A program made the position numbers and the translations under genes. 11,530 nucleotides of DNA, from NCBI GenBank assembly GCA_030613765.1, contig JAUWLI010000061.1, forward strand, positions 1 through 11,530, written 5' to 3'. The DNA is from Phycisphaerae bacterium (GTDB lineage Bacteria; Planctomycetota; Phycisphaerae; Sedimentisphaerales; SG8-4). The notes beneath the pieces were generated by a model that ran no database searches, had not been told where the DNA came from, and was given only the letters and a program-made list of their open reading frames with translations. This document shows, piece by piece, positions 955-11,530 of the stretch. Positions within the stretch are counted from its first letter, which is position 1. Each line of letters begins with the position of its first letter.

Positions 955-2175
955 TTATTCCTGCTTTGACACAATCGGCTGTTCGCATCTGGTCAACTCA
1001 TAAGTATCATTGGCAATAGCGACCTGCTCATTTGCCGGAATTACAAAGACTTTGACTCTGCTGTCGGTGGTACTGATTTCAGCTTCTTTTGCGACAACCG
1101 TCTTGTTTTTTTCCTCGTCAAGCTGGACGCCTAATTGATTTAGGCCGGTACATATCTGCTGACGCAGGAACACGGCGTTTTCCCCTATACCACCCGTAAA
1201 GACTATAGCGTCAACTGTATCCAGAACGGCACAATATACGCCGATGTACTTCTTGATGCGGTAGCAGAAAATATCGATAGCGAGCTGTGCCCGAGAATTG
1301 CCCTGGCCTGCAAGTTCCACGAGATTTCTCACGTCGTTCGAGACACCTGATATTCCGAGCAGACCGCTTTTCTTGTTGCACAGCTCTTTCAATGCTTTTA
1401 CGTCGTATCCTTTATCGCCAAGATAAAAGAGTATCGACGGGTCAAGGTCGCCGGAGCGCGTTCCCATCGGCACACCCTCCAGAGGCGTAAATCCCATAGA
1501 GGTATCAATTGACCTGCCCTGTTTCACGGCGGTAATAGAGCAGCCATTTCCAAGATGACAGGTAACGGTGTTGATATTATATTTCCCACGGCCCATTATG
1601 GAAGCGGCACGCCTGGCAACATATCTGTGCGAGATTCCGTGGAAACCATATCTGCGAATCCCGTATTGCTCGTAAAGTTCGTACGGCAAAGCATACATGT
1701 ACGCGGTTTTCGGGATGGTGGCATGAAATGCGGTGTCAAAGCAGGCAACCTGCTTTGCGTCAGGAAGTCTGCGCTGCACGGCCCGAACGCCTGCGAGGTT
1801 AGGAGGATTGTGCAGCGGAGCAAGCTCTGCGTACTTCTCTATAGATGCAATTACCTTTTCATCAATATTTACAGAGTAAGTGAACTCTTCGCCTCCGTGA
1901 ACTACCCTGTGACCAACGGCACTAATTTCAGAAAAGTCCTGTATAACTCCCACATCTCTGCCGACAAGAGTCTCCAATATAAACTCCATTGCCTTTCCGA
2001 CATCTTCGATCTTTGTTTGCACGGCGTGGGTCTTGCCATTAAAGAAATGAGAGAGTTCTGATCTTTCCTCTCCAATTCGTTCGACCACACCGTGGGCCAG
2101 GACCTCCGCCTGTGGCATATTGTACAAGTGATACTTGACCGAGGAGCTACCTGCATTGATGACGAGTACTTTCAT
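955..2175 (-). CDS. ackA: Acetate kinase
   Basis: Cytoplasmic acetate kinase of the ASKHA fold: acetyl phosphate + ADP to acetate + ATP, reversible, the ATP-yielding last step of acetate fermentation. Full length at 406 residues. Every active-site position known from the Methanosarcina enzyme is recognisable: Asn7 and Ser10-12 in 'NAGSSS', Lys14, Arg90 in 'VGHRVVHGG', His122 in 'LHNP', Asp147 in 'FDTAFH', His179 in 'YGFHGISH', Arg240 in 'MGTRSGDLDP' and Glu383 in 'ANEQ'. 'FTGGIGEN' (326-333) is the late phosphate/nucleotide motif. The ATG at 2175 gives the canonical 'MKVLVINAGSSS' start and has a modest AAGGA about ten bases upstream. It follows pta by 60 bases on the same strand, the usual partner, so Pta and AckA form a complete acetyl-CoA to acetate route. 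Nothing in the sequence suggests a defect. Confidence 0.97.
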   Translation of the reverse strand: MKVLVINAGSSSVKYHLYNMPQAEVLAHGVVERIGEERSELSHFFNGKTHAVQTKIEDVGKAMEFILETLVGRDVGVIQDFSEISAVGHRVVHGGEEFTYSVNIDEKVIASIEKYAELAPLHNPPNLAGVRAVQRRLPDAKQVACFDTAFHATIPKTAYMYALPYELYEQYGIRRYGFHGISHRYVARRAASIMGRGKYNINTVTCHLGNGCSITAVKQGRSIDTSMGFTPLEGVPMGTRSGDLDPSILFYLGDKGYDVKALKELCNKKSGLLGISGVSNDVRNLVELAGQGNSRAQLAIDIFCYRIKKYIGVYCAVLDTVDAIVFTGGIGENAVFLRQQICTGLNQLGVQLDEEKNKTVVAKEAEISTTDSRVKVFVIPANEQVAIANDTYELTRCEQPIVSKQE

Positions 2176-2235
2176 CTTAAAATTATCCTTTCACTATATG
2201 CGCCATTCTTGGCATTTTCATGTGGTGCTTGTTAT

Positions 2236-3234
2236 CTACACCAATTGCACCAAAGTTAAAACCACTGCTGAAATTATGTCATCCACACTTGCACCTCTTG
2301 AAAGGTCTGTGATGGGTTTTGCAAATCCCTGCAGGAACGGCCCAATGGCCTGGGCGCCGGCCATATATTGTGTGAGCTTGTAAGCGATATTTCCGGAAGT
2401 AAGGTCGGGGAAAATAATAACATTGGCCCTCCCCGCCACAGGACTTTCATCCTTAACTTTCTTGGCAGCTATCCTTGGAATTATTGCCGAGTCCGCCTGA
2501 AACTCGCCGTCAATAGCCAATTCAGGTTCCCGTGCCCGCGCTATCTTTAGAGCCTCTTTAATCTTATCCACACATGGCCCGAAAGCACTGCCCTTGGTAG
2601 AGAATGATAACAGGGCTACACGCGGTTCCTTGCCGAGAAGTCTCCTTGCACTTGCAGCCGAAGCCAGCGCAATATCGGCGAGTTGTTCAGCCGTAGGGTC
2701 GATGTTGACAGCGCAGTCGGCGTAAATGAAGGTTTTGTCCTTTTCTCCAAGAAACTCGGGTACAACCATAATAAAATAGCTGGAAGGAGTCTTGAGCCCA
2801 GGGCTCAATCCTACTGTCAAGACTCCGGCTTGAATAAGAATCGATGTCGCACTGGCAACACCACCCACAAAAACATCAGCATCGCCGCAAGCTACCATCA
2901 TGCCCGCGTAGAATAGTGGCTTGACGACTATGCGTTTTGCCACAGCGGCGGAAATACCATCTCTTCGGCGGCTGTAATTTTCAGCATAAAAATCGATTTT
3001 ATGATTTTTTTTGGGATTTATGGTTTTGATACCATCGAGATCGACCCCGGCTTTTTCGATTGCGGTTTCAAGCTGTTCGGGTTTTCCGAGCACAATTGGT
3101 TGCGCAATATCTTCATCTTTAAGTCTTCGAGCAGCCTGAATTATCCGCTCGTCTCTACCCTCCGGCAGAACAACGGAAAAATTGCGACCCACAATCTTCT
3201 GCGTAAAAGCTCTGACTATATCCTTCTTTACCAC
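2236..3234 (-). CDS. pta: Phosphate acetyltransferase (short form)
   Basis: Phosphate acetyltransferase: acetyl-CoA + phosphate to acetyl phosphate + CoA, feeding AckA. At 332 residues it is the short, catalytic-domain-only form, without the N-terminal DRTGG/P-loop regulatory part of enterobacterial Pta. Visible family features are '[11 protein letters not shown]' (21-31), 'GDADVFVGG' (117-125), 'SFSTKGSA' (210-217), 'GEFQADSAI' (243-251) and the C-terminal signature '[17 protein letters not shown]' (298-314), with Ser312, Arg313 and Asp319 aligning with the catalytic Ser309/Arg310/Asp316 of the Methanosarcina enzyme. The start codon is GTG at 3234, supported by AAAGGGA about seven bases upstream. 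It begins 16 bases after the larE stop, and the Shine-Dalgarno lies in that gap, indicating a shared transcript with larE. The related MaeB C-terminal and phosphate butyryltransferase families are less likely given the signature and the ackA neighbour. Confidence 0.96.
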
Positions 3235-3250
3235 GTTACTTCCCTTTACT

Positions 3251-4087
3251 TCAATAAAGGCTTTTTCGCTTCTCGTCTTCTGAGAGCGGTTCGTTCAAGG
3301 AACCTGAGCGGAAGCCCTGCAGGTCGACGGTCACAAATTTAAATCCGAGCGATTTCACCTTCTCGATTATCTTCGAGCGGTTTGGCTCTGTTGTAACTTT
3401 GTCAATATCCTGCGGATTAACCTCAATTCGGGCAACGATATCGTGATGGCGAACGCGGAATTCGACCAGCCCAATCTTCCTTAAAAAGTCTTCGGCCTCC
3501 TCGATTTGCTTCAGTCGCTTTTCCGTAACCTCCAGACCATAGCTGATTCGCGAGGCAAGGCACGGAGACGCGGGAACATCGGCTGTGGGCAAGTTCAAGT
3601 CTCTGCTTAACCGGCGAATATCGTCCTTGGTAAGCTTGGCCTCCATTAGCGGGCAGTGGACATCGAGGACTTTAGCCGCTCGATTACCCGGCCTAAAGTC
3701 ATCCTTATCGTCAAAATTGCTGCCGCAAACAACGCATTTAAAATCCTCCTCTTTGGCAATATCGATAAGGAGTCCGTAAAGATGTGATTTGCAGTGGAAA
3801 CAACGGTCGGCCTTGTTGGCGGCGTACTTATCATCCGAAAGCTCGTCTACGGTCACCTCTTTAATCTGTGCCCCGATAATTTTTGCGCATTTTAGGGCCT
3901 GGTCGTACTGTGAGCCGGCCAGGGATGGGCTTACACCTATACAAGCCAGCACATTTTCAGAACCCAGCGTATCGACAGCCGCCTTTAAAAGAAAGGTACT
4001 ATCCACCCCGCCGGAGTAGGCAACAACGACTTTACCCAGCTTTTTGAGCATTTGCTGAAGCAAATTATACTTTTCCTTGATATCCAC
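3251..4087 (-). CDS. larE: ATP-dependent sacrificial sulfur transferase LarE (nickel-pincer cofactor synthesis)
   Basis: PP-loop ATP pyrophosphatase of the LarE family. LarE adenylates and then thiolates the carboxylates of the pyridinium biscarboxylic mononucleotide made by LarB; LarC then inserts nickel to give the cofactor of LarA racemases. The PP-loop 'SGGVDS' is at 25-30, '[13 protein letters not shown]' at 122-134 and the C-terminal '[14 protein letters not shown]' at 253-266, all typical of LarE. Cys96 and Cys99 ('DRCFHCK') plus Cys176 ('SPCLASR') are the three-cysteine set of the [4Fe-4S] type, whereas lactobacilli carry only the sacrificial Cys. Start choice: the reading frame stays open far upstream through the tRNA gene, so the 5' end must be inferred. 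GTG at 4087 gives 278 residues and lies two bases after the tRNA discriminator. TTG at 4063, with AAGGA about ten bases upstream, would give 270. pta follows after 16 bases. Confidence 0.9.
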
Positions 4088-4089
4088 AC

Positions 4090-4161
4090 AGCCGATGGTG
4101 AGAGTCGAACTCACAACCTCAGCTTTACGAAAGCTGTGCTCTACCATTGAGCTACATCGGC
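4090..4161 (-). tRNA. tRNA-Thr (anticodon CGT)
   Basis: A complete 72-base cloverleaf on the minus strand. The acceptor stem GCCGATG/CATCGGC is 7 of 7 paired and the D stem is GCTC/GAGC. The anticodon stem CAGCT/AGCTG encloses loop TTCGTAA with anticodon CGT (template positions 4129-4127), reading ACG threonine codons. The T stem GTGAG/CTCAC encloses loop TTCGACT. The discriminator is T at 4090; no CCA is encoded, so it must be added after 3' trimming. It heads the larE-pta-ackA direction with its own promoter just upstream, and the likely larE start codon follows two bases after the discriminator. Confidence 0.96.
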
Positions 4162-4174
4162 ATTTACGCCGGCT

Positions 4175-4203
4175 ATAATACTGATCATTGCCTGGCTTGT
4201 AAA
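4175..4203 (-). promoter_or_regulatory. Sigma70-like promoter of tRNA-Thr-larE-pta-ackA
   Basis: On the minus strand there is a -35 TTTACA (4203-4198), a spacer of exactly 17 bp, and a -10 TATTAT (4180-4175), each one mismatch from consensus. The predicted start falls about 4170-4167, only a few bases before the mature tRNA 5' end at 4161. This placement suits a tRNA promoter. The only candidate for transcription of larE that I see nearby is this one. Confidence 0.6.
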
Positions 4204-4358
4204 GAGGCTTCATAAGGTCATTTAACAAGCGGCCTGAACAATTTTTTTCGTCTCGTTCGCGGGCAGAAGCCAAAGGACCGAGAACAAAAATCCGACATCG
4301 GACTGCTTTTTTACGCCCTTCTGCGTGGCTCAAGACAGGCCTTTGGGCGGAGGTGAAA

Positions 4359-4671
4359 TTGGCTTTGTTTGGCTTTGTTTTGTCGGAACCCGAAAACGCG
4401 GTTTTTTTCATAATCCCTTTTGACAAAGAGGGTTGCATTGGTTTTTGTCGTTTCGAAGTTTGGCTTTGTTTTTTCGGGGCCCGAATTGGCGGTTTATTTT
4501 CATAACCCACTGTTAAAATAGAAGTTACGTTCATTTTGGCTTTTTTGAATTTGGCTTTGTTTGGGTTTGTTTGGCTTTGTTTTTTCCCAATTGACCAAGT
4601 GTCCATTTTATCATAATCCCTTGTTATTACTTTAGTTACGTTAAACTTGACTTTTCGGAATTTGGCTTTGT
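4359..4671. repeat. Degenerate intergenic repeat array (units about 92-111 bp)
   Basis: The core TTGGCTTTGT occurs at 4359, 4369, 4460, 4551, 4571 and 4662. A second conserved block, CATAA(T/C)CC, occurs at 4409, 4501 and 4612, and GTTACGTT-like sequence recurs near 4525 and 4635. Spacings of 92 and 111 bp for the second block show about three decayed units. Read on the minus strand they give 'KKQSQT', 'NKAKF' and 'KTKPN' strings. Such strings are, from memory, common spurious translations in Phycisphaerae intergenic DNA. Because some spacings are not multiples of three, I do not think the array is coding. Confidence 0.7.
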
Positions 4672-4704
4672 TTTGCAAAAAAAGTCTGATTTGTAAAGTT
4701 TTCA

Positions 4705-4736
4705 TTACATCTGTAAATGTATCTTTACAGGTGTAA
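4705..4736. promoter_or_regulatory. Pair of TTACA-N2-TGTAA palindromes, 20 bp apart
   Basis: Two 12-bp palindromes with the same half-sites lie at 4705-4716 (spacer TC) and 4725-4736 (spacer GG; its arms extend to TTTACA/TGTAAA at 4724-4737). They start exactly 20 bp apart, about two helical turns. TACA-N2-TGTA is the known operator core of the CopY/BlaI/MecI repressor family. The two copies can also pair with each other as a 13-bp stem (4705-4717 with 4724-4736, one wobble, six-base loop), so a hairpin reading is possible. No regulator or obvious target promoter adjoins them. Confidence 0.35.
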
Positions 4737-4763
4737 AGCGCCATAAAGAGTCGTAAGTCTTTT

Positions 4764-4860
4764 ATTAATCGCGGATTACGCTGATTAAACGGATTTTTTG
4801 GCCACAAAAATGCACAAAAAACACAAAGAAACAAAGAAAATAGGCATAGGGGGCACAGAG
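4764..4860. repeat. Probable dispersed-repeat remnant in gene-free DNA
   Basis: This stretch consists of 'GCGGATTACGCTGATTAAAC' (4771-4790), then 'GCCACAAAAATGCACAAAAA' and further CACAAAGAAA-type A-rich sequence. Blocks of this kind recur between genes in planctomycete and other environmental genomes, from memory. I see no second copy in the window, no start codon with a ribosome binding site and no codon structure. The surrounding bases from 4861 to 5077 hold nothing I can identify. Confidence 0.35.
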
Positions 4861-5077
4861 ATTTTGGCCGGCTGGTTGTTCTCGGCAAGCTATGCTCTAA
4901 AAGCGAGCTTTTGACGCAGAGAATTGCCTTCGTCCACAAGGCCATTGAAACGGCCTTTTTCAGAAGCCGGCTAAATAAGTGTTTATTAGGTGCTTTATTA
5001 ACCATTAATACACCAAAATGTTTAAAAACTTGGCTTTTATGATGCAAAATAATGCTTTTTTAGTTGTTTAAACTGTT

Positions 5078-5281: not shown

Positions 5282-6529
5282 CTATTTCTCTTCCATCCAT
5301 TGGTTTGCCGTGATAGCAAAGTCGAGGAAGTTTACGATTCGGTCTTTGTTGATATCTGAAGGCAGGTAGACTCTCAGGTAGGGATAGGTCTGGTTTTCAC
5401 CTATGTTCCAGATGTTGATGAAGTTCCAACCAGCATCGGTGAAGGTGCTTCTTGTTTGCATCTGTGGGGTGGGCAGGCCTGCTACATTGATAACTGGGCC
5501 TCCGTTTAATCCAATACTTTCGGTTACACCGTGGGTCTGGCTGTCAGTGTCCCAGAAGCAGTTCAGAACAACATCCCAATTTCCCCCCACCAGACCGCCG
5601 ACAGAGTCACCACCGTTGACATCGCCGGTAGAATAGCAGTTCGAGACGTTGGCATTATTAGACCCCATCAATCCGCCGACAAACCGCCCGCCGCTTACAT
5701 TACCGGTAGAATAGCAGTTCGAGACGATTCCAAAAGTATAACCTGTCAGGCCGCCGATAGTTTCACCAGTTCCGCTCACATCGCCGGTGGAATAGCAGTT
5801 TGAGACACTACTGTAAATTGCAGATCCCACCAGACCGCCGACAGAGCCACCACCGTTGACATTGCCGGTAGAATAGCAGTTCGAGACGATTGCCTTAGTA
5901 TAACCTGCCAGGCCGCCGATAGCTTCGTTAGTTCCGCTCACCTCGCCGGTGGAATAGCAGTTTGAGACACTACCGTATTCAAACCTCCCCATCAGACCGC
6001 CGACATTGTTAACACCGTTGACATCGCAGGTAGAATAGCATTTCGAAATGGTACCTTCATTAGTAGAGCCCACCAAACCACCGACAATCCAGCCACCGCT
6101 GACAGAGCCACCTTCAAGGCCCAGGTTGCTGACGTCGCCGTCACCATCTATGTAGCCGAACAGCCCCAAATACCGGCTACCAACCCCGCCGTCGATGTTC
6201 AGGTTTTTTATCTTATGGTCGTTTCCATCAAAGACACCCGAAAAGGCAACTCCCTGAAACCCACTTTCACTATCATTCACATCACAAGCAATTACAGCCC
6301 TATCATACACCATCCCTGCCAAATTAACATCGGTCTCCAATCTCGTGAAGCCCGCCCAGTAATTGGCGTCAGCCGCAAAGTCATTGAAATCCTCTAATGA
6401 CTGTATCAGCCACGGGTCTTCCTGCGTACCTGAGCCATCCAAAGCTACAGCAGTATTTACGCATAAGCCGACCATTACTAATACAGTGATTTTCCTCAAC
6501 AGGTTTGAAATCCTCGCTATAACCGTCAT
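5282..6529 (-). CDS. Secreted GLUG-repeat protein with C-terminal dockerin-like tail
   Basis: A 415-residue exported protein of unknown function. Residues 1-29 form a signal peptide: positive start (Arg6, Arg12, Lys13), hydrophobic 'ITVLVMVGLCV' and an AVA site at 27-29. Residues 30-145 have the usual opening of these proteins ('GSGTQEDPWLIQSLEDF', 'FSGVFDGNDHKIKNL'). Residues 149 to about 316 are tandem GLUG motifs of 26-27 residues, consensus GGLVG-x(4-6)-VSNCYSTG-x-VSG, likely building a beta-solenoid. Residues 391-411 ('SDINKDRIVNFLDFAITA' onward) match the first Ca-binding loop and helix of a dockerin-like module, common at the ends of planctomycete secreted proteins. Such proteins are thought to sit on the cell surface or in polysaccharide-degrading assemblies; binding partner unknown. 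The start is supported by AGGAGG six bases upstream of the ATG. It stands alone, with its own terminator. Confidence 0.85.
   Translation of the reverse strand: MTVIARISNLLRKITVLVMVGLCVNTAVALDGSGTQEDPWLIQSLEDFNDFAADANYWAGFTRLETDVNLAGMVYDRAVIACDVNDSESGFQGVAFSGVFDGNDHKIKNLNIDGGVGSRYLGLFGYIDGDGDVSNLGLEGGSVSGGWIVGGLVGSTNEGTISKCYSTCDVNGVNNVGGLMGRFEYGSVSNCYSTGEVSGTNEAIGGLAGYTKAIVSNCYSTGNVNGGGSVGGLVGSAIYSSVSNCYSTGDVSGTGETIGGLTGYTFGIVSNCYSTGNVSGGRFVGGLMGSNNANVSNCYSTGDVNGGDSVGGLVGGNWDVVLNCFWDTDSQTHGVTESIGLNGGPVINVAGLPTPQMQTRSTFTDAGWNFINIWNIGENQTYPYLRVYLPSDINKDRIVNFLDFAITANQWMEEK
5582..6085 (-). repeat. 81-bp tandem coding repeats with a 162-bp higher-order duplication
   Basis: The phrase GAATAGCA recurs at 5631, 5709, 5790, 5871, 5952 and 6033, spacings of 78, 81, 81, 81 and 81 bp, each encoding the 'CYST' core of a GLUG motif. 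Alternate units are more alike than neighbours: residues 187-240 and 241-294 (5971-5810 and 5809-5648) share the order SVSNCYSTG, IGGL-x-GYT, IVSNCYSTGNV. The GGAATAGCAG phrase and its flanks are identical at 5789 and 5951. This indicates growth by duplication of a two-motif, 162-bp block. Confidence 0.8.
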
Positions 6530-6828: not shown

Positions 6829-7170
6829 TTAGTCGAAGTATTCGTCTTTGGGATCGAAGGCGGGGATAGAGACGTTTACGATTCGCATCTTGCCTACCGC
6901 ACGATGGCGGCAGCCGGGCTTTATGAAGATAGCAGTGAACGGCTTAACCGGCACCATTTCGCCATCCAACTCCATGTGCCCAACGCCTTCAAGGACAAGA
7001 TAGACCTCCGTTAGCTTTTTATGATAATGGACCTTTGCATCCTTTTCGATATCGACTATGTGCATCGTGGCCACTGTATTATCCGGGTCGACAAAGGCCC
7101 GCCGTGAAAAACCGCAGGGGCACTTGACGGCATCGATATCGTGAAACTGTGTTATCATATAGTTCGCCAT
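6829..7170 (-). CDS. Small single-domain cupin protein
   Basis: A 113-residue cytoplasmic cupin. Motif 1 is 'VHYHKKLTEVYLVLEGVG' (47-64), with metal ligands His48, His50 and Glu55. Motif 2 is 'FIKPGCRHRAVG' (82-93), with His89 as the fourth ligand. A complete 2-His/Glu/His set predicts a bound divalent metal. Proteins of this size act as sugar-phosphate isomerases, epimerases, dioxygenases or small-molecule sensors, and the sequence does not choose between them. The ATG at 7170 has AGGTAG about eight bases upstream. It is divergent from the phosphofructokinase operon across a 238-base gap with promoters on both strands, so a link to that sugar pathway is possible but unproven. An unusual 'KCPCGFSRRAF' (16-26) near the N terminus has two cysteines, Cys17 and Cys19. 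Confidence 0.85.
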   Translation of the reverse strand: MANYMITQFHDIDAVKCPCGFSRRAFVDPDNTVATMHIVDIEKDAKVHYHKKLTEVYLVLEGVGHMELDGEMVPVKPFTAIFIKPGCRHRAVGKMRIVNVSIPAFDPKDEYFD

Positions 7171-7408: not shown

Positions 7409-8674
7409 ATGAATTCTAAAGCCAATGCAATTGTGGCACAATCGGGGGGGCCGACCGCAGTAATCAATTCGAGTGCCTGCGGTGTTGTCCAGGAAGCAAT
7501 GAAATCGGGCAAAATCGGGCGGGTAATAGGCGCCACCAACGGCATATTAGGTGTTTTAGGCGAGGATTTGTTCGATATTTCCGCAGAAAAGCCGGAAACC
7601 ATCGAGGCACTGAAGCAAACACCCGCGGCAGCCATCGGCTCGTGCAGGTATAAGCTAAAATCACTCGAAGAATCCAAGGCGGATTTCGAAAGAATACTCG
7701 ATGTCTTCAAGGCCCACGCCATCCATTACTTCTTCTATGCCGGCGGTAACGACTCGATGGACACCGCCGACAAGGTCAATAAGCTGGCAGCAGATGCCGG
7801 TTACGAGCTGGTCTGCATGGGTATTCCGAAAACGGTTGATAACGACCTTGCGTGCACGGACCATTGTCCGGGGTATCCAAGCGTTGCTAAATACGTTGCG
7901 ACCTGTGCAGCCGAAGCAGGCAGAGATACGGAAGCACTTTACACACATGACACCTGTACTATACTTGAAGTGATGGGCAGAAACGCCGGCTGGATAGCGG
8001 CAGCGACGGGCCTTGCCGTAACCTGCCCCGAAGATGCACCGCATCTCGTATATCTGCCTGAAGCAGGTTTCTCCTGGGACAAATTCATCAGCGATGTCAA
8101 GCAGGTGCTCAAGGAACTGCGCAGGGTCTTTATCGTTGCAGGTGAGGGGCTAAAAGACGACAAAGGCGAATACATCACCTCCGACTCCGGAGCCTTCGCC
8201 AAGGACGACTTCGGCCACGTGCAACTTGGCGGCGTAGGTGATATGCTCAAGGCTGTGATTGAGAAGGAGGTGGGCATAAAGGCACGCTTTAATAAGCTCG
8301 GCACCAATCAGCGAACAGCCATGCACTTTGGTTCGCTGACCGATGTCAACGAGGCCTATATGTGCGGGCAAATGGCTGTAAAATATGCGATGGATGGCGT
8401 CAATGGTAAAATGGTAACTCTGGTTCGTGAGGCCGGGCCGGAATACAAATGCACAACAGGATTAGCAGAGTTGCGAGATGTGGCCAACGGGGAAAAGAAA
8501 GTGCCCGCCGAGTATATAAATGATAAGGGCAATCATATCACCGATGCGATGCGAGATTATGTCAGGCCGTTAGTGCAGGGCGAAGCACCGGTAACAATCG
8601 GTAAAGATGGACTGCCCGTTTTTATGAGATTCGAACGCAAACCGTTAGAGAAGAAATTACCAAAGTACCTTTGA
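7409..8674 (+). CDS. pfp: 6-phosphofructokinase, pyrophosphate-dependent type
   Basis: Phosphofructokinase-family enzyme: fructose 6-phosphate + PPi to fructose 1,6-bisphosphate + Pi, reversible, serving glycolysis and gluconeogenesis; such enzymes often also accept sedoheptulose 7-phosphate. Full length at 421 residues. Donor use is indicated by two positions. 'GGNDS' (112-116) places Asp where ATP enzymes have Gly104 (E. coli GGDGS). 'PKTVDND' (140-146) places Lys where ATP enzymes have Gly124 (PGTIDND). Both changes mark PPi use. The catalytic Asp of 'TVDND' and the substrate motif 'MGRNAGW' (189-195) are intact. The first Asp of GGDGS, which helps bind Mg-ATP, is Asn here. The ATG at 7409 has AAGGGAG about eight bases upstream and a good promoter. 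It leads a plus-strand operon; the SDR gene starts 16 bases after its stop. Confidence 0.92.
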   Translation: MNSKANAIVAQSGGPTAVINSSACGVVQEAMKSGKIGRVIGATNGILGVLGEDLFDISAEKPETIEALKQTPAAAIGSCRYKLKSLEESKADFERILDVFKAHAIHYFFYAGGNDSMDTADKVNKLAADAGYELVCMGIPKTVDNDLACTDHCPGYPSVAKYVATCAAEAGRDTEALYTHDTCTILEVMGRNAGWIAAATGLAVTCPEDAPHLVYLPEAGFSWDKFISDVKQVLKELRRVFIVAGEGLKDDKGEYITSDSGAFAKDDFGHVQLGGVGDMLKAVIEKEVGIKARFNKLGTNQRTAMHFGSLTDVNEAYMCGQMAVKYAMDGVNGKMVTLVREAGPEYKCTTGLAELRDVANGEKKVPAEYINDKGNHITDAMRDYVRPLVQGEAPVTIGKDGLPVFMRFERKPLEKKLPKYL

Positions 8675-8690
8675 TTAATAAGGATGAACA

Positions 8691-9509
8691 ATGAAAGAGC
8701 TGTTTGACATCAAAAATAAAGTAATTGTGATTACAGGGGCCGGGGGCGTTCTTTGCGGCACGATGGCCAAGGCACTGGCTCAAGCCGGTGCAAAAATCGC
8801 CGTTCTGGACATAGATGAAACCGCCGCGGCCGAAGTTGCTGATGAAATTGGAACCAGTCAGGGCCAGGCCATCGCGGTCAAATGTAACGTATTAGATAAA
8901 GAGAGTCTGGGTCGCGCCCGCGAGGAAATCAATTCCGAGTTCGGCCAAATCGACATACTGATTAACGGAGCCGGCGGAAACAAAAAAGAAGCCACGACTT
9001 CGCCGGACCTTTCCTTTTTCGACCTGCCGGCCGAAGCCATTCGGTTTGTTTTCGACCTCAATTTCATCGGCACATTGCTGCCAACGCAGGTTTTCGGTAA
9101 ACAGATGTCTGAAAACGGTGCCGGCGTGATACTGAATATTTCGAGTATGAACGCTTTCCGTCCCCTGACGAAAATCGCCGCATACTCAGCCGCCAAAGCC
9201 GCCGTCAGCAACTTTACCCAATGGCTGGCGGTACACGTTTGCCAAAACTATTCCAAAGACATCCGCGTCAATGCAATTGCACCGGGATTTTTCCTGACCG
9301 AACAGAACAGGTTCCTCTTGACCGATGAAGAGACCGGAGAGCTGACCGACCGCGGCAAAACAATTATCGACCATACGCCGATGGGACGGTTCGGTGAGGC
9401 CCAAGAGCTGATAGGAACAGTCTGCTGGCTGCTCAGCGATGCAGCGAAATTCGTCACTGGTGTTGTTGTCCCCATCGACGGCGGCTTTTCCGCCTTTAGT
9501 GGAGTATAA
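8691..9509 (+). CDS. SDR-family oxidoreductase resembling D-mannonate oxidoreductase (YjmF/UxuB type)
   Basis: A 272-residue short-chain dehydrogenase/reductase. The Rossmann motif is the variant 'TGAGGVLCG' (15-23), where the usual second and third Gly are Val20 and Cys22; the Bacillus YjmF type has the same 'GVLC'. Asp40/Asp42 after the second strand suggest NAD(H) preference. 'INGAGGN' (91-97), Ser151/Ser152, Tyr165 and Lys169 ('YSAAK') complete the active site. 'VNAIAPGFFLTEQN' (193-206) and the ending 'PIDGGFSAFSGV' are close to the D-mannonate/D-fructuronate oxidoreductases of hexuronate pathways, as I remember them. A role in interconverting a 2-keto sugar acid and an aldonate is therefore likely, though uxuA, kdgK and kdgA are not in view. 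AAGGA sits six bases before the ATG. The HAD gene follows after 17 bases. Confidence 0.87.
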   Translation: MKELFDIKNKVIVITGAGGVLCGTMAKALAQAGAKIAVLDIDETAAAEVADEIGTSQGQAIAVKCNVLDKESLGRAREEINSEFGQIDILINGAGGNKKEATTSPDLSFFDLPAEAIRFVFDLNFIGTLLPTQVFGKQMSENGAGVILNISSMNAFRPLTKIAAYSAAKAAVSNFTQWLAVHVCQNYSKDIRVNAIAPGFFLTEQNRFLLTDEETGELTDRGKTIIDHTPMGRFGEAQELIGTVCWLLSDAAKFVTGVVVPIDGGFSAFSGV

Positions 9510-9526
9510 TTTTCAGGAGAAAGAAA

Positions 9527-10435
9527 ATGACCGACCCAGCACAACCTTTAAAAGACTTTAAGCCGAAAAAGAAATTTTTCGTCGGTATCGATTCGGACGG
9601 CTGCGCGTTTGACACGATGGGGATAAAGCAGCGGGAATGCTTTTGTCCCTGGCTGATTGGCTATTTCGGCCTACAGCCGGTGGCTCATGCAGTTCGTGAA
9701 TGCAAGGAATTTGCCGATTTGTTTTCCAAAACGCGTGGATTCAACCGACATAAAACCACTAAGCGCATCATAGCAGAGCTACTGCCGGCCCATCCAATGG
9801 TCACAGCAAGAGGCTTTAAGGTGCCGCAATACCCACACTATTTTGCCTGGGTCGATGACCCCAACAGTATGCTCAGTAACGATGGACTCAAACAGGCCAT
9901 CGAAAAGGCCACGGACCCGGATGTTAAAAGCGAACTGGAAAACGCGCTGGCCTGGAGCGAAAAGGTCAACGAGTCTATAGGCCAGATTGTCAAGGGCCTG
10001 CCTCCGTTTCCTTACGTCCGCGAGAGCCTGGAAAAAATCACACCTCTGGCCGACGCCATAGTTGTCTCGGCAACGCCGAACGAGGCACTTGCCCGCGAGT
10101 GGGAAGAACACGACATTTCCAAGTATGTCGAGGTCATAGCAGGCCAGGAAATGGGGAAAAAGGCCCAGCATCTCGAATACGCCACAAAAGGTAGATACGA
10201 AAAGGACCATGTCATAATGGTCGGCGACGCCCCCGGTGATATGAAAGCCGCCAAGGCGAATGATGCGCTGTTTTACCCGATTAATCCGGGCAATGAGGTC
10301 AAATCCTGGACGAGATTCCACGATGAAGCCTTCGATAAATTCATCAATGGCGAATACGCGGGCGAATACGAGGAAAAAGTGATTGCGGAATTCGACGCCT
10401 ACCTGCCTGAGAGACCACCCTGGGAAAAAACTTGA
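9527..10435 (+). CDS. HAD-family hydrolase, probable phosphatase
   Basis: A 302-residue haloacid dehalogenase-superfamily protein. Motif I is 'GIDSDGCAFDTM' (20-31), with nucleophile Asp22 and acid Asp24. A large cap insertion, about 31-170 and mostly helical by appearance, follows. Motif II is 'VVSATPNE' (179-186), motif III the lysine in 'GKKAQH' (210-215) and motif IV 'VGDAPGDMKAA' (232-242), with Asp234 and Asp238 as Mg ligands. DxD plus this motif IV indicates a phosphotransfer enzyme, most simply a sugar-phosphate phosphatase. The long C1 cap, the C-terminal extension after 250 and the 'DSDGC' variant of the usual DxDGT set it apart from phosphoglycolate phosphatases, and I do not recognise the subfamily. 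AGGAGAAAG precedes the ATG. Its place between the SDR and LarA-type genes suggests a shared carbohydrate substrate. Confidence 0.85.
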   Translation: MTDPAQPLKDFKPKKKFFVGIDSDGCAFDTMGIKQRECFCPWLIGYFGLQPVAHAVRECKEFADLFSKTRGFNRHKTTKRIIAELLPAHPMVTARGFKVPQYPHYFAWVDDPNSMLSNDGLKQAIEKATDPDVKSELENALAWSEKVNESIGQIVKGLPPFPYVRESLEKITPLADAIVVSATPNEALAREWEEHDISKYVEVIAGQEMGKKAQHLEYATKGRYEKDHVIMVGDAPGDMKAAKANDALFYPINPGNEVKSWTRFHDEAFDKFINGEYAGEYEEKVIAEFDAYLPERPPWEKT

Positions 10436-10478
10436 ACCGTAAAGCGACTTAAGAAACACTCTTCGTGAGATATAAATA

Positions 10479-11530
10479 ATGGTAATCGAGCGACAAAGCA
10501 AAGACGGTTACGTTGAAAACGAGCAAGCTGCAGAAGCAATCGCCGAGTTCTTTGCGCAAAACGACTACACCGGCAAACGGCTTCTGCTGATAGTTCCCGA
10601 CAACACCCGTTCCGGCCCTATCGGTGACATTTTCAAAATCGTCTATGATTGTTTGGAGCAAAAGGCAAAGACTGTAGATATCCTTGTCGCACTCGGAACT
10701 CATCAACCTCTGACGGAAGAGCAAATCTGCACAAGGCTTAACATAACATCCGATGAGCGAAGCAGTAAATACGCATCGGTTAAATTCTTCAATCACGAAT
10801 GGCAAAAACCTGAAACGCTCACTTCTATTGGAACAATCTCTGCCGACGAAATCGGCGGAATAACCGAGGACCTTTTTCACGAAGAAGTTGATGTACGGGT
10901 TAATAAACTTCTCTTCGATTATGATGAATTTTTCATCTTAGGTCCCGTCTTCCCTCACGAAGTAGTCGGCTTTTCCGGGGGACATAAGTATATCTTCCCG
11001 GGAATCGCAGGCGAGGAAATCATCAATTTCTTCCATTGGCTCGGTGCCGTGTGCACAAATCCACAAATCAATGGCAATATATGGACAACACCACGAAAAG
11101 TGGTGGAAAAAGCGGCATCATTTGTAAAAATGCCCAGAAAATTATTCGCTATTGTCGCCGTTGAAGACAAACTTAAGGGACTGTTTGTCGGCGATTGTGT
11201 AGAGGCTTGGGAAAAGGCGGCCCAGCTCTCCGAAAAAGTGCACATTGTCTATAAAGACAAGCCGTATAAAACGATTCTCGGCATCGCACCCACAATGTAT
11301 GACGACATCTGGACGGCAGCCAAAGCGATGTACAAACTCGAACCAGTAACCGCCGACGGCGGGACACTGATTATCTACGCACCTCACATTACTGAAATCT
11401 CATACACTCATGGCAAATTTATTGACCAGATTGGTTATCATACGCGAGACTATTTCCTAAAGCGAATGGACAAGTTCTCCGACATACCGCGTTCAGTGAT
11501 AGCACATTCCACACACGTTAAAGGCATCGG
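10479..11530 (+). CDS. larA: LarA-family nickel-pincer-nucleotide racemase/epimerase, partial
   Basis: The first 350 codons of a LarA homologue (lactate racemase superfamily); the 3' end is beyond the right edge. LarA enzymes invert C2 of 2-hydroxyacids by hydride transfer to a nickel-pincer nucleotide bound through a lysine. Key residues match Lactobacillus plantarum LarA by motif and spacing: Asp41 and Arg44 in 'VPDNTRSGP', His106 in 'FNHEW' (as His108), His160 in 'FPHEVVGF' (as His174), Lys170 in 'GFSGGHKYIFPG' (as Lys184, the cofactor link) and His186 in 'NFFHW' (as His200, nickel ligand). The 10- and 16-residue spacings of the last three are conserved. Differences from common LarA, as I recall it, are 'GTHQP' for GTHRP, 'DNTRSGP' for DxTRPxP and Trp after the Ni-ligand His. 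Start: an in-frame TAA at 10473 makes ATG 10479 the first choice; the ribosome site is weak (GTGAGA). It lies 43 bases after the HAD gene. Confidence 0.9.
   Translation, partial: MVIERQSKDGYVENEQAAEAIAEFFAQNDYTGKRLLLIVPDNTRSGPIGDIFKIVYDCLEQKAKTVDILVALGTHQPLTEEQICTRLNITSDERSSKYASVKFFNHEWQKPETLTSIGTISADEIGGITEDLFHEEVDVRVNKLLFDYDEFFILGPVFPHEVVGFSGGHKYIFPGIAGEEIINFFHWLGAVCTNPQINGNIWTTPRKVVEKAASFVKMPRKLFAIVAVEDKLKGLFVGDCVEAWEKAAQLSEKVHIVYKDKPYKTILGIAPTMYDDIWTAAKAMYKLEPVTADGGTLIIYAPHITEISYTHGKFIDQIGYHTRDYFLKRMDKFSDIPRSVIAHSTHVKGI

Follow-up and report, generated by a model that had tools for sequence, protein, structure and literature searches.

A HAD-fold protein stands in the place of gluconokinase in a putative uronate catabolic gene cluster with a nickel-pincer epimerase

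A stretch of DNA of 11,530 nucleotides from a Phycisphaerae bacterium (assembly GCA_030613765.1, contig JAUWLI010000061.1), hereafter the window, carries four adjacent genes on the + strand at 7409-8674, 8691-9509, 9527-10435, and 10479-11528. They encode, in that order, a pyrophosphate (PPi)-type phosphofructokinase (PFK), a short-chain dehydrogenase/reductase (SDR) of the D-mannonate oxidoreductase kind, a protein of the haloacid dehalogenase (HAD) superfamily, and a nickel-pincer LarA homologue. The open reading frame coordinates bore out the shared direction and the gaps of 16, 17, and 43 bases given in a first-pass annotation of this DNA. Our best explanation, held with modest confidence, is that the cluster is a uronate-to-pentose-phosphate operon in which the HAD protein would serve as a phosphotransferase, making 6-phosphogluconate from gluconate and replacing gluconokinase. 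The gene set, the families and residues of its products, their conservation, and the non-overlap of the HAD protein with kinases were computed; from these we infer all of the reactions, that of the HAD protein above all.

In the proposed route, UxaC and UxaE, encoded in relatives of the cluster, or Iol enzymes in Bipolaricaulota, would act upstream to provide D-fructuronate, which the SDR would convert to D-mannonate. The LarA homologue, of the kind named GntE, would then invert C2 of D-mannonate to give D-gluconate. The HAD protein, acting via a phospho-aspartate at D22, would place a phosphate onto O6 of gluconate to form 6-phosphogluconate; candidate donors are PPi, a sugar bisphosphate, acetyl phosphate, and ATP. 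Gnd (6-phosphogluconate dehydrogenase), encoded downstream in relatives, would decarboxylate this product to ribulose-5-phosphate, and the PPi-PFK would serve the pentose-phosphate/glycolytic end.

The HAD protein and two kinds of gluconate kinase were sought in 82 GntE-bearing genomes (18 Armatimonadota, 37 Chloroflexota, and 27 Planctomycetota), many of them draft assemblies without stated completeness. The HAD protein was found in 35 genomes, an FGGY-family kinase of the GntE-cluster type in 31, and a P-loop gluconokinase near GntE in 3. At the thresholds used, none of the 82 held the HAD protein together with an FGGY or P-loop gluconate kinase; this result, like the count of genomes with none of the enzymes, is weaker for P-loop kinases, which beyond four genomes (G008, G009, G034, and G035; G### denotes a genome and L### a stretch fetched around a match) were sought in the fetched stretches only.

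A GntE-type LarA was found at an E value of 1e-60 in 18 of 101 Armatimonadota genomes, of which six had the HAD protein, nine the FGGY kinase, three neither, and none both (Fisher p = 0.009, without correction for kinship). The FGGY query was the kinase of the L121 GntE cluster, and matches scored at least 298 bits, its own genome counted, with the next at 134 bits. All six HAD-positive genomes carried Gnd, divided between two contigs in the case of G059; of the nine FGGY-positive ones, eight carried it and G037 gave a distant match only. Among 251 Chloroflexota, 53 matched GntE at the same E value, and the 37 with at least 473 bits were kept. Seven of these had the HAD protein, 22 the FGGY kinase (above 400 bits), eight neither, and none both (Fisher p = 0.0006, likewise uncorrected). 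A search for the HAD protein alone in the 16 matching genomes left out (278-317 bits) found none. Across all 251, the seven HAD-positive genomes lay among the 37 GntE-positive ones (hypergeometric p = 9e-7). The 27 GntE-positive genomes of 246 Planctomycetota comprised 22 with the HAD protein, none with the FGGY kinase, and five with neither. The P-loop gluconokinase relatives occurred in L155, L206, and L207, all from genomes with neither of the other two enzymes; two of them adjoin GntE and the third adjoins Gnd. The L207 protein, the only one of the three scored, reached 176.9 bits against a cut-off of 113.75. The count leaves out L190, where the match was partial and reached only 27 bits.

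Within a single phylum, the like operons L177 and L175 read UxaE-SDR-HAD-LarA-Gnd-PFK and SDR-LarA-FGGY kinase-Gnd-(IolO-like)-UxaE, respectively. Replacement between the HAD protein and the FGGY kinase likely happened more than once, as a quick GntE tree of 81 of the 82 proteins (G037 left out) required at least four changes between the two states. Because the HAD protein did not overlap with either kind of gluconate kinase in GntE-positive genomes, it more likely adds a phosphate. The first-pass annotation had it release or clear a phosphorylated intermediate, and the distribution suggests that the reverse is probably true.

A scan of genome contigs with an alignment of the HAD protein confirmed at least 585 relatives. 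For the best 80 of these, neighbors were counted in the fetched stretch, on the same strand, and above 80 bits, and many contigs were short. LarA was found in 59 of the best 80, the SDR in 55, Gnd in 50, PFK in 42, UxaE in 25, and UxaC in 16, where the reference Gnd and UxaC proteins had been named by NCBIfam and UxaE by Pfam PF16257. Because the four partners LarA, SDR, Gnd, and PFK recur in this way, the grouping is not due to chance. Directly beside the HAD frame (<700 bases), the SDR stood upstream in 39/80 and LarA downstream in 34/80, and the gene order, which the first-pass annotation had suggested checking, was kept in relatives. The close relatives named were Planctomycetota, Phycisphaerae, and Sedimentisphaerales genomes from metagenomes. 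In the nearest of the 80 by HAD identity (L001, 94%), Gnd came next after LarA, with UxaC farther along; the window stops before the matching point. In L057, from Bipolaricaulota, the set was preceded by genes for IolM and IolN, each scoring above its cut-off, and for an IolO-like protein (230 of 300 bits).

Several loci among the 80 carried additional genes. A zinc alcohol dehydrogenase gene followed HAD in seven (L005, L006, L013, L014, L017, L020, and L021), five of which had a second SDR as well, both preceding LarA where LarA was seen, hinting at a further sugar acid feeding the same route. The set adjoined relatives of the L057 Iol-like genes in L057, L059-L062, and L065 from Bipolaricaulota, and in L180 from Chloroflexota, and inositol may enter the same route in such loci. 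L010 held two HAD matches, the first being the weaker at 335 bits, together with two Gnd matches and a partial PFK match of 140 bits.

Gnd copies near full length retained two 6-phosphogluconate dehydrogenase motifs in 46/46 cases and two others in 44/46, motifs that have a role in the enzyme. Since Gnd, with these motifs kept, is found with HAD in 50 of the 80 stretches, a phosphorylated substrate is needed. No known gluconokinase was seen in the four-gene set or in the clusters of the best 80 HAD stretches; FGGY genes were present in two of the 80, their products nearest to rhamnulokinase and ribulokinase. The P-loop gluconokinase model TIGR01313 passed its cut-off in none of 36 HAD genomes, a set sharing only G008, G009, G034, and G035 with the 82-genome survey, and its best score was 29 bits. 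The FGGY gluconokinase model TIGR01314 also passed in none of the 36, but it proved a poor test, as kinases of the GntE clusters scored only 211-255 of 648.55 bits. Because this model says little, the GntE-cluster kinases were used as queries instead. Among four such proteins scored, the gluconokinase model was the best for three and tied with the xylulokinase model for L129, with none over cut-off.

The LarA homologue (10479-11528) contains a Lar_N domain and is open at the window end, with 350 of about 425 residues present as judged by full-length relatives. Its best match in the PDB was 4NAR (186 bits), and lactate racemase gave 41 bits. 4NAR is GntE2 of Thermotoga maritima, which epimerizes D-mannonate to D-gluconate (PMC7583248). 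The same paper lists D72, H108, H174, and K298 as the catalytic residues of LarA, and R75, K184, and H200 as binding the nickel-pincer nucleotide (NPN). The counterparts in the window protein, catalytic D41, H75, H160, and K282 and NPN-binding R44, K170, and H186, are all present, which upholds the full catalytic set reported in the first-pass annotation. The signature described for LarA homologue groups 18-20 consists of an EV/S loop, a tryptophan in helix 11, and A/V in helix 14 (PMC7583248). The window protein has the loop (E161-V162) and the helix 11 tryptophan (W278); the helix 14 site is placed only approximately, at S339-V340, by alignment to 4NAR rather than by the column of the published logo. 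The group-18 model NF052594 gave 183.5 bits with the truncated protein, below its cut-off of 500. Since four full-length LarA relatives from other phyla also scored only 179-197 bits, the homologue is assigned by its sequence to a branch neighboring group 18 rather than to group 18 itself. Lactate racemase was rejected as its identity: NF033504 gave 73 of 460 bits with the truncated protein, and the loop is EV and not FF. On these scores and residues the protein is of the mannonate/gluconate 2-epimerase (GntE) kind, which favors the aldonate C2 epimerization (gluconate/mannonate) proposed earlier and does not place the protein with lactate racemases.

In six of the 80 loci (L012, L019, L035, L043, L045, and L067) the LarA homologue found with the HAD protein belonged to another branch, and the three of these scored (L035, L045, and L067) passed the cut-off for the group-18 "putative hexonate epimerase". 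This pairing supports a putative gluconate/mannonate role for group 18.

The SDR (272 residues, 8691-9509) passed the cut-off of PRK08277, "D-mannonate oxidoreductase" (402.6 versus 281 bits), in line with the assignment made in the first-pass annotation, and is of the fructuronate reductase (YjmF/UxuB) kind. Its placement there, linking the epimerase product to a 2-keto acid, was not sustained: by family the SDR would act before the epimerase, taking fructuronate, a 5-keto acid, to mannonate.

The HAD protein (302 residues, 9527-10435) matched only PF13419 (HAD_2) and, weakly, phosphoglycolate phosphatase, with no NCBIfam family over cut-off. HAD proteins are recognized by motifs I-IV, namely DxD, S/T, K, and DD. 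The corresponding residues D22, D24, S181, K212, D234, and D238 were invariant in all 55 aligned rows, the window protein included, as were K34, E37, R70, N73, R74, and W143. A structure predicted from this 55-row alignment had a pLDDT of 96.2, and it replaced an earlier model from 15 close relatives with a pLDDT of 43.7. The modeled fold resembles HAD phosphatases and beta-phosphoglucomutase, and motifs and predicted fold together assign the protein to the HAD superfamily. Membership in a known gluconokinase family, FGGY or P-loop, was rejected because no such sequence match was obtained; a kinase-like working is only possible. Identity to beta-phosphoglucomutase and to the HAD pyrophosphatase of Bacteroides thetaiotaomicron (3quq, 3qut) is only 13-17%, and those proteins have about 220 residues. 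Precedents for phosphotransfer by HAD proteins may be sought by chemical analogy in beta-phosphoglucomutase and ThrH. The latter is a phosphoserine:homoserine phosphotransferase that makes phosphohomoserine. This HAD protein can take over from a kinase in vivo because it transfers phosphate, presumably via a phospho-enzyme (PMC1079889). ThrH differs in its substrates, and the likeness is drawn from chemistry and not from sequence.

Several observations weigh against gluconate phosphorylation by the HAD protein. The catalytic residues of HAD phosphatases and phosphotransferases are not separable, and many plain phosphatases match the fold as well as do beta-phosphoglucomutase and 3quq/3qut. None of the three enzymes was seen in 13 of the 82 surveyed genomes. 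The FGGY threshold of 400 bits matters: at 200 bits, G280 (207.6 bits) would count as having both enzymes, and G516 (198.9 bits) comes close. On the GntE tree the HAD and FGGY states each fall into clusters, and an independent-pairs sign test there was not significant, with too few informative pairs. Linkage to GntE is also uneven; the HAD gene lay in the fetched GntE stretch in six of seven Chloroflexota and four of six Armatimonadota genomes, but in only 7 of 22 Planctomycetota, and the FGGY kinase did so in only one of 22 Chloroflexota and three of nine Armatimonadota. The FGGY proteins of the GntE clusters are presumed gluconate kinases by place and best-scoring model only. Among the best 80 HAD loci, 20 had no LarA above 80 bits in the fetched stretch, some on short contigs, and in L044 HAD adjoins the unrelated genes for glutamine synthetase and an ammonium transporter. 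Lastly, FGGY proteins of HAD genomes could phosphorylate gluconate. Genes for this family were present in all 16 HAD genomes searched, and ten of the proteins were scored (from G008 and from G002, G003, G005, and G007, chosen as genomes with few of them). All ten were nearest to xylulokinase, rhamnulokinase, or ribulokinase, three being over cut-off. The candidates are the XylB-like L081 and L092 and L096, which scored 211 and 198 bits with the gluconokinase model and higher with the xylulokinase model.

These FGGY proteins bear on the alternative that fares best, though we consider it rather unlikely, in which a kinase encoded elsewhere, for example the XylB-like one, phosphorylates gluconate and the HAD protein is a phosphatase for metabolite repair, as PGP and Pho13 are. 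PGP and Pho13 remove 4-phosphoerythronate, an inhibitor of Gnd. The PF13419 match and the nearest folds, phosphatases and beta-phosphoglucomutase, agree with such a role, as does the presence of FGGY genes in every HAD genome searched, with a XylB-like protein among those scored. One would not, however, expect a repair enzyme to be missing from genomes that have a cluster-type gluconate kinase, since Gnd is in both groups, nor to occur solely in GntE-positive Chloroflexota. In addition, L081 matches xylulokinases in the PDB at 163 and 154 bits, and gluconate kinase at only 105 bits.

It is improbable that the neighboring PFK-family protein is itself the gluconate kinase and that the HAD protein has another job. 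PFK does occur in 42 of the 80 stretches, in 18 of them less than 700 bases from the HAD frame (17 upstream, one downstream), and is present in several HAD-positive Chloroflexota operons, but it was not seen in other HAD stretches (e.g., L071, L076, L078, and L080), and G191, which lacks the HAD protein, has a PFK relative close to GntE. The window PFK (421 residues, 7409-8674) moreover passed the cut-off of the PPi-PFK model PRK14072 (550.3 versus 273 bits) and has the usual GGND (at 112) and PKTVDND motifs, which point to PPi use. A reconstruction of the planctomycete Thermogutta reports no gluconokinase and no transaldolase, and suggests that PPi-PFK acts on sedoheptulose-7-phosphate (PMC5673643); the PFK gene of the window fits this suggestion.

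Slightly less probable still is a route in which mannonate is phosphorylated and the LarA homologue acts on 6-phosphomannonate. The mannonate-first order was shown in extracts of Lactobacillus suebicus (PMC6978723), but GntE2, the nearest characterized LarA homologue, uses free D-mannonate, albeit at a KM of 17 (PMC7583248, Table 2). The epimerase in the preferred scheme would likewise act on the free acid. The unit of the GntE2 constant for D-mannonate we take to be mM. A reversed pathway, with the HAD protein dephosphorylating 6-phosphogluconate and gluconate, mannonate, and uronates as products, would need a phosphatase where the kinase stood, but it is very unlikely given neighbors that look catabolic (UxaC in 16 of the 80 stretches, and genes of the GH88 kind in L042, for a sulfatase in L051, and, named by eye, of a transporter-like kind in L038) and given IolM/IolN with the IolO-like protein in L057, whose hydrolysis step is not expected to reverse.

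Elsewhere in the window, a gene for LarE, the sulfur transferase for the nickel-pincer cofactor (TIGR00268, 314.2 bits, cut-off 150), lies at 3251-4087 on the - strand and so shares the window with the LarA gene. Its start is approximate, the hidden Markov model match spanning about 3293-4075 and the upstream end being set by the adjoining tRNA-Thr (CGT) at 4090-4161 (-); a 598-residue open reading frame at 3251-5047 is an overlong reading that runs through this tRNA. The genes for acetate kinase and phosphotransacetylase adjoin each other at 955-3234 (-), and the pair is a possible source of acetyl phosphate. A small cupin gene at 6829-7170 (-) is divergent from the operon, and a relative stood on the opposite strand ahead of PFK or SDR in 15 of the best 80 HAD loci; it is possibly linked to the pathway. 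The gene at 5282-6529 (-) encodes a secreted-looking protein with, as read by eye, GLUG-like repeats and a dockerin-like C-terminus, and a similar gene is placed after Gnd in L001. A promoter and terminator scan of the window gave signal at chance level.

More tentatively, and at a little short of an even chance, the HAD-fold phosphotransferase would constitute a third, unrelated class of gluconate-phosphorylating enzyme, with PPi or a sugar bisphosphate as donor, possibly the one formed by the operon PPi-PFK, and not ATP. It would occur in Planctomycetota, Bipolaricaulota, Chloroflexota, Armatimonadota, and other phyla, in most cases alongside the nickel-pincer gluconate epimerase pathway. 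Our searches of open PubMed Central papers listed none on a HAD-type gluconokinase. If gluconate phosphorylation by the HAD protein is correct, a widespread family with at least 585 confirmed relatives would gain a function, and a phosphatase fold would be known to replace a catabolic kinase in several phyla with few cultured members. The gap in planctomycete uronate catabolism left by the Thermogutta reconstruction without gluconokinase (PMC5673643) would be closed as well, the nickel-pincer cofactor would be linked to the use of uronates, and a route in which gluconate phosphorylation need not cost ATP would be suggested.

Parts of the system have known counterparts. The LarA homologue shares with groups 18-20, which include GntE1 and GntE2 (PMC7583248), the catalytic and NPN residues, the EV loop, and the helix 11 tryptophan, and differs from group 18 in falling below the NCBIfam cut-off. 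In L. suebicus, galacturonate fermentation also proceeds from uronate via mannonate and enters as 6-phosphogluconate, but mannonate is phosphorylated first, genes resembling gluconate kinase are present, and a phosphoketolase route follows (PMC6978723). Closest is the GntE-GntK-Gnd branch of T. maritima (Rodionova et al. 2012, via PMC6978723 and PMC7583248), which has UxaC, UxaE, and fructuronate reductase, an NPN-dependent 2-epimerase of the same kind, and entry via 6-phosphogluconate dehydrogenase. For T. maritima a gluconokinase is proposed; the present cluster has a HAD protein at that point and also includes a PPi-PFK gene. The first-pass annotation knew of no described pathway with this gene set; as to the carbon route this does not hold, since the path from uronate through mannonate, gluconate, and 6-phosphogluconate to pentose phosphate has been proposed for Thermotoga with gluconokinase (PMC6978723, PMC7583248); what our searches did not find in print is a HAD protein in the place of the kinase. 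In outline, the carbon route is already known as a proposal for Thermotoga, with a variant in L. suebicus.

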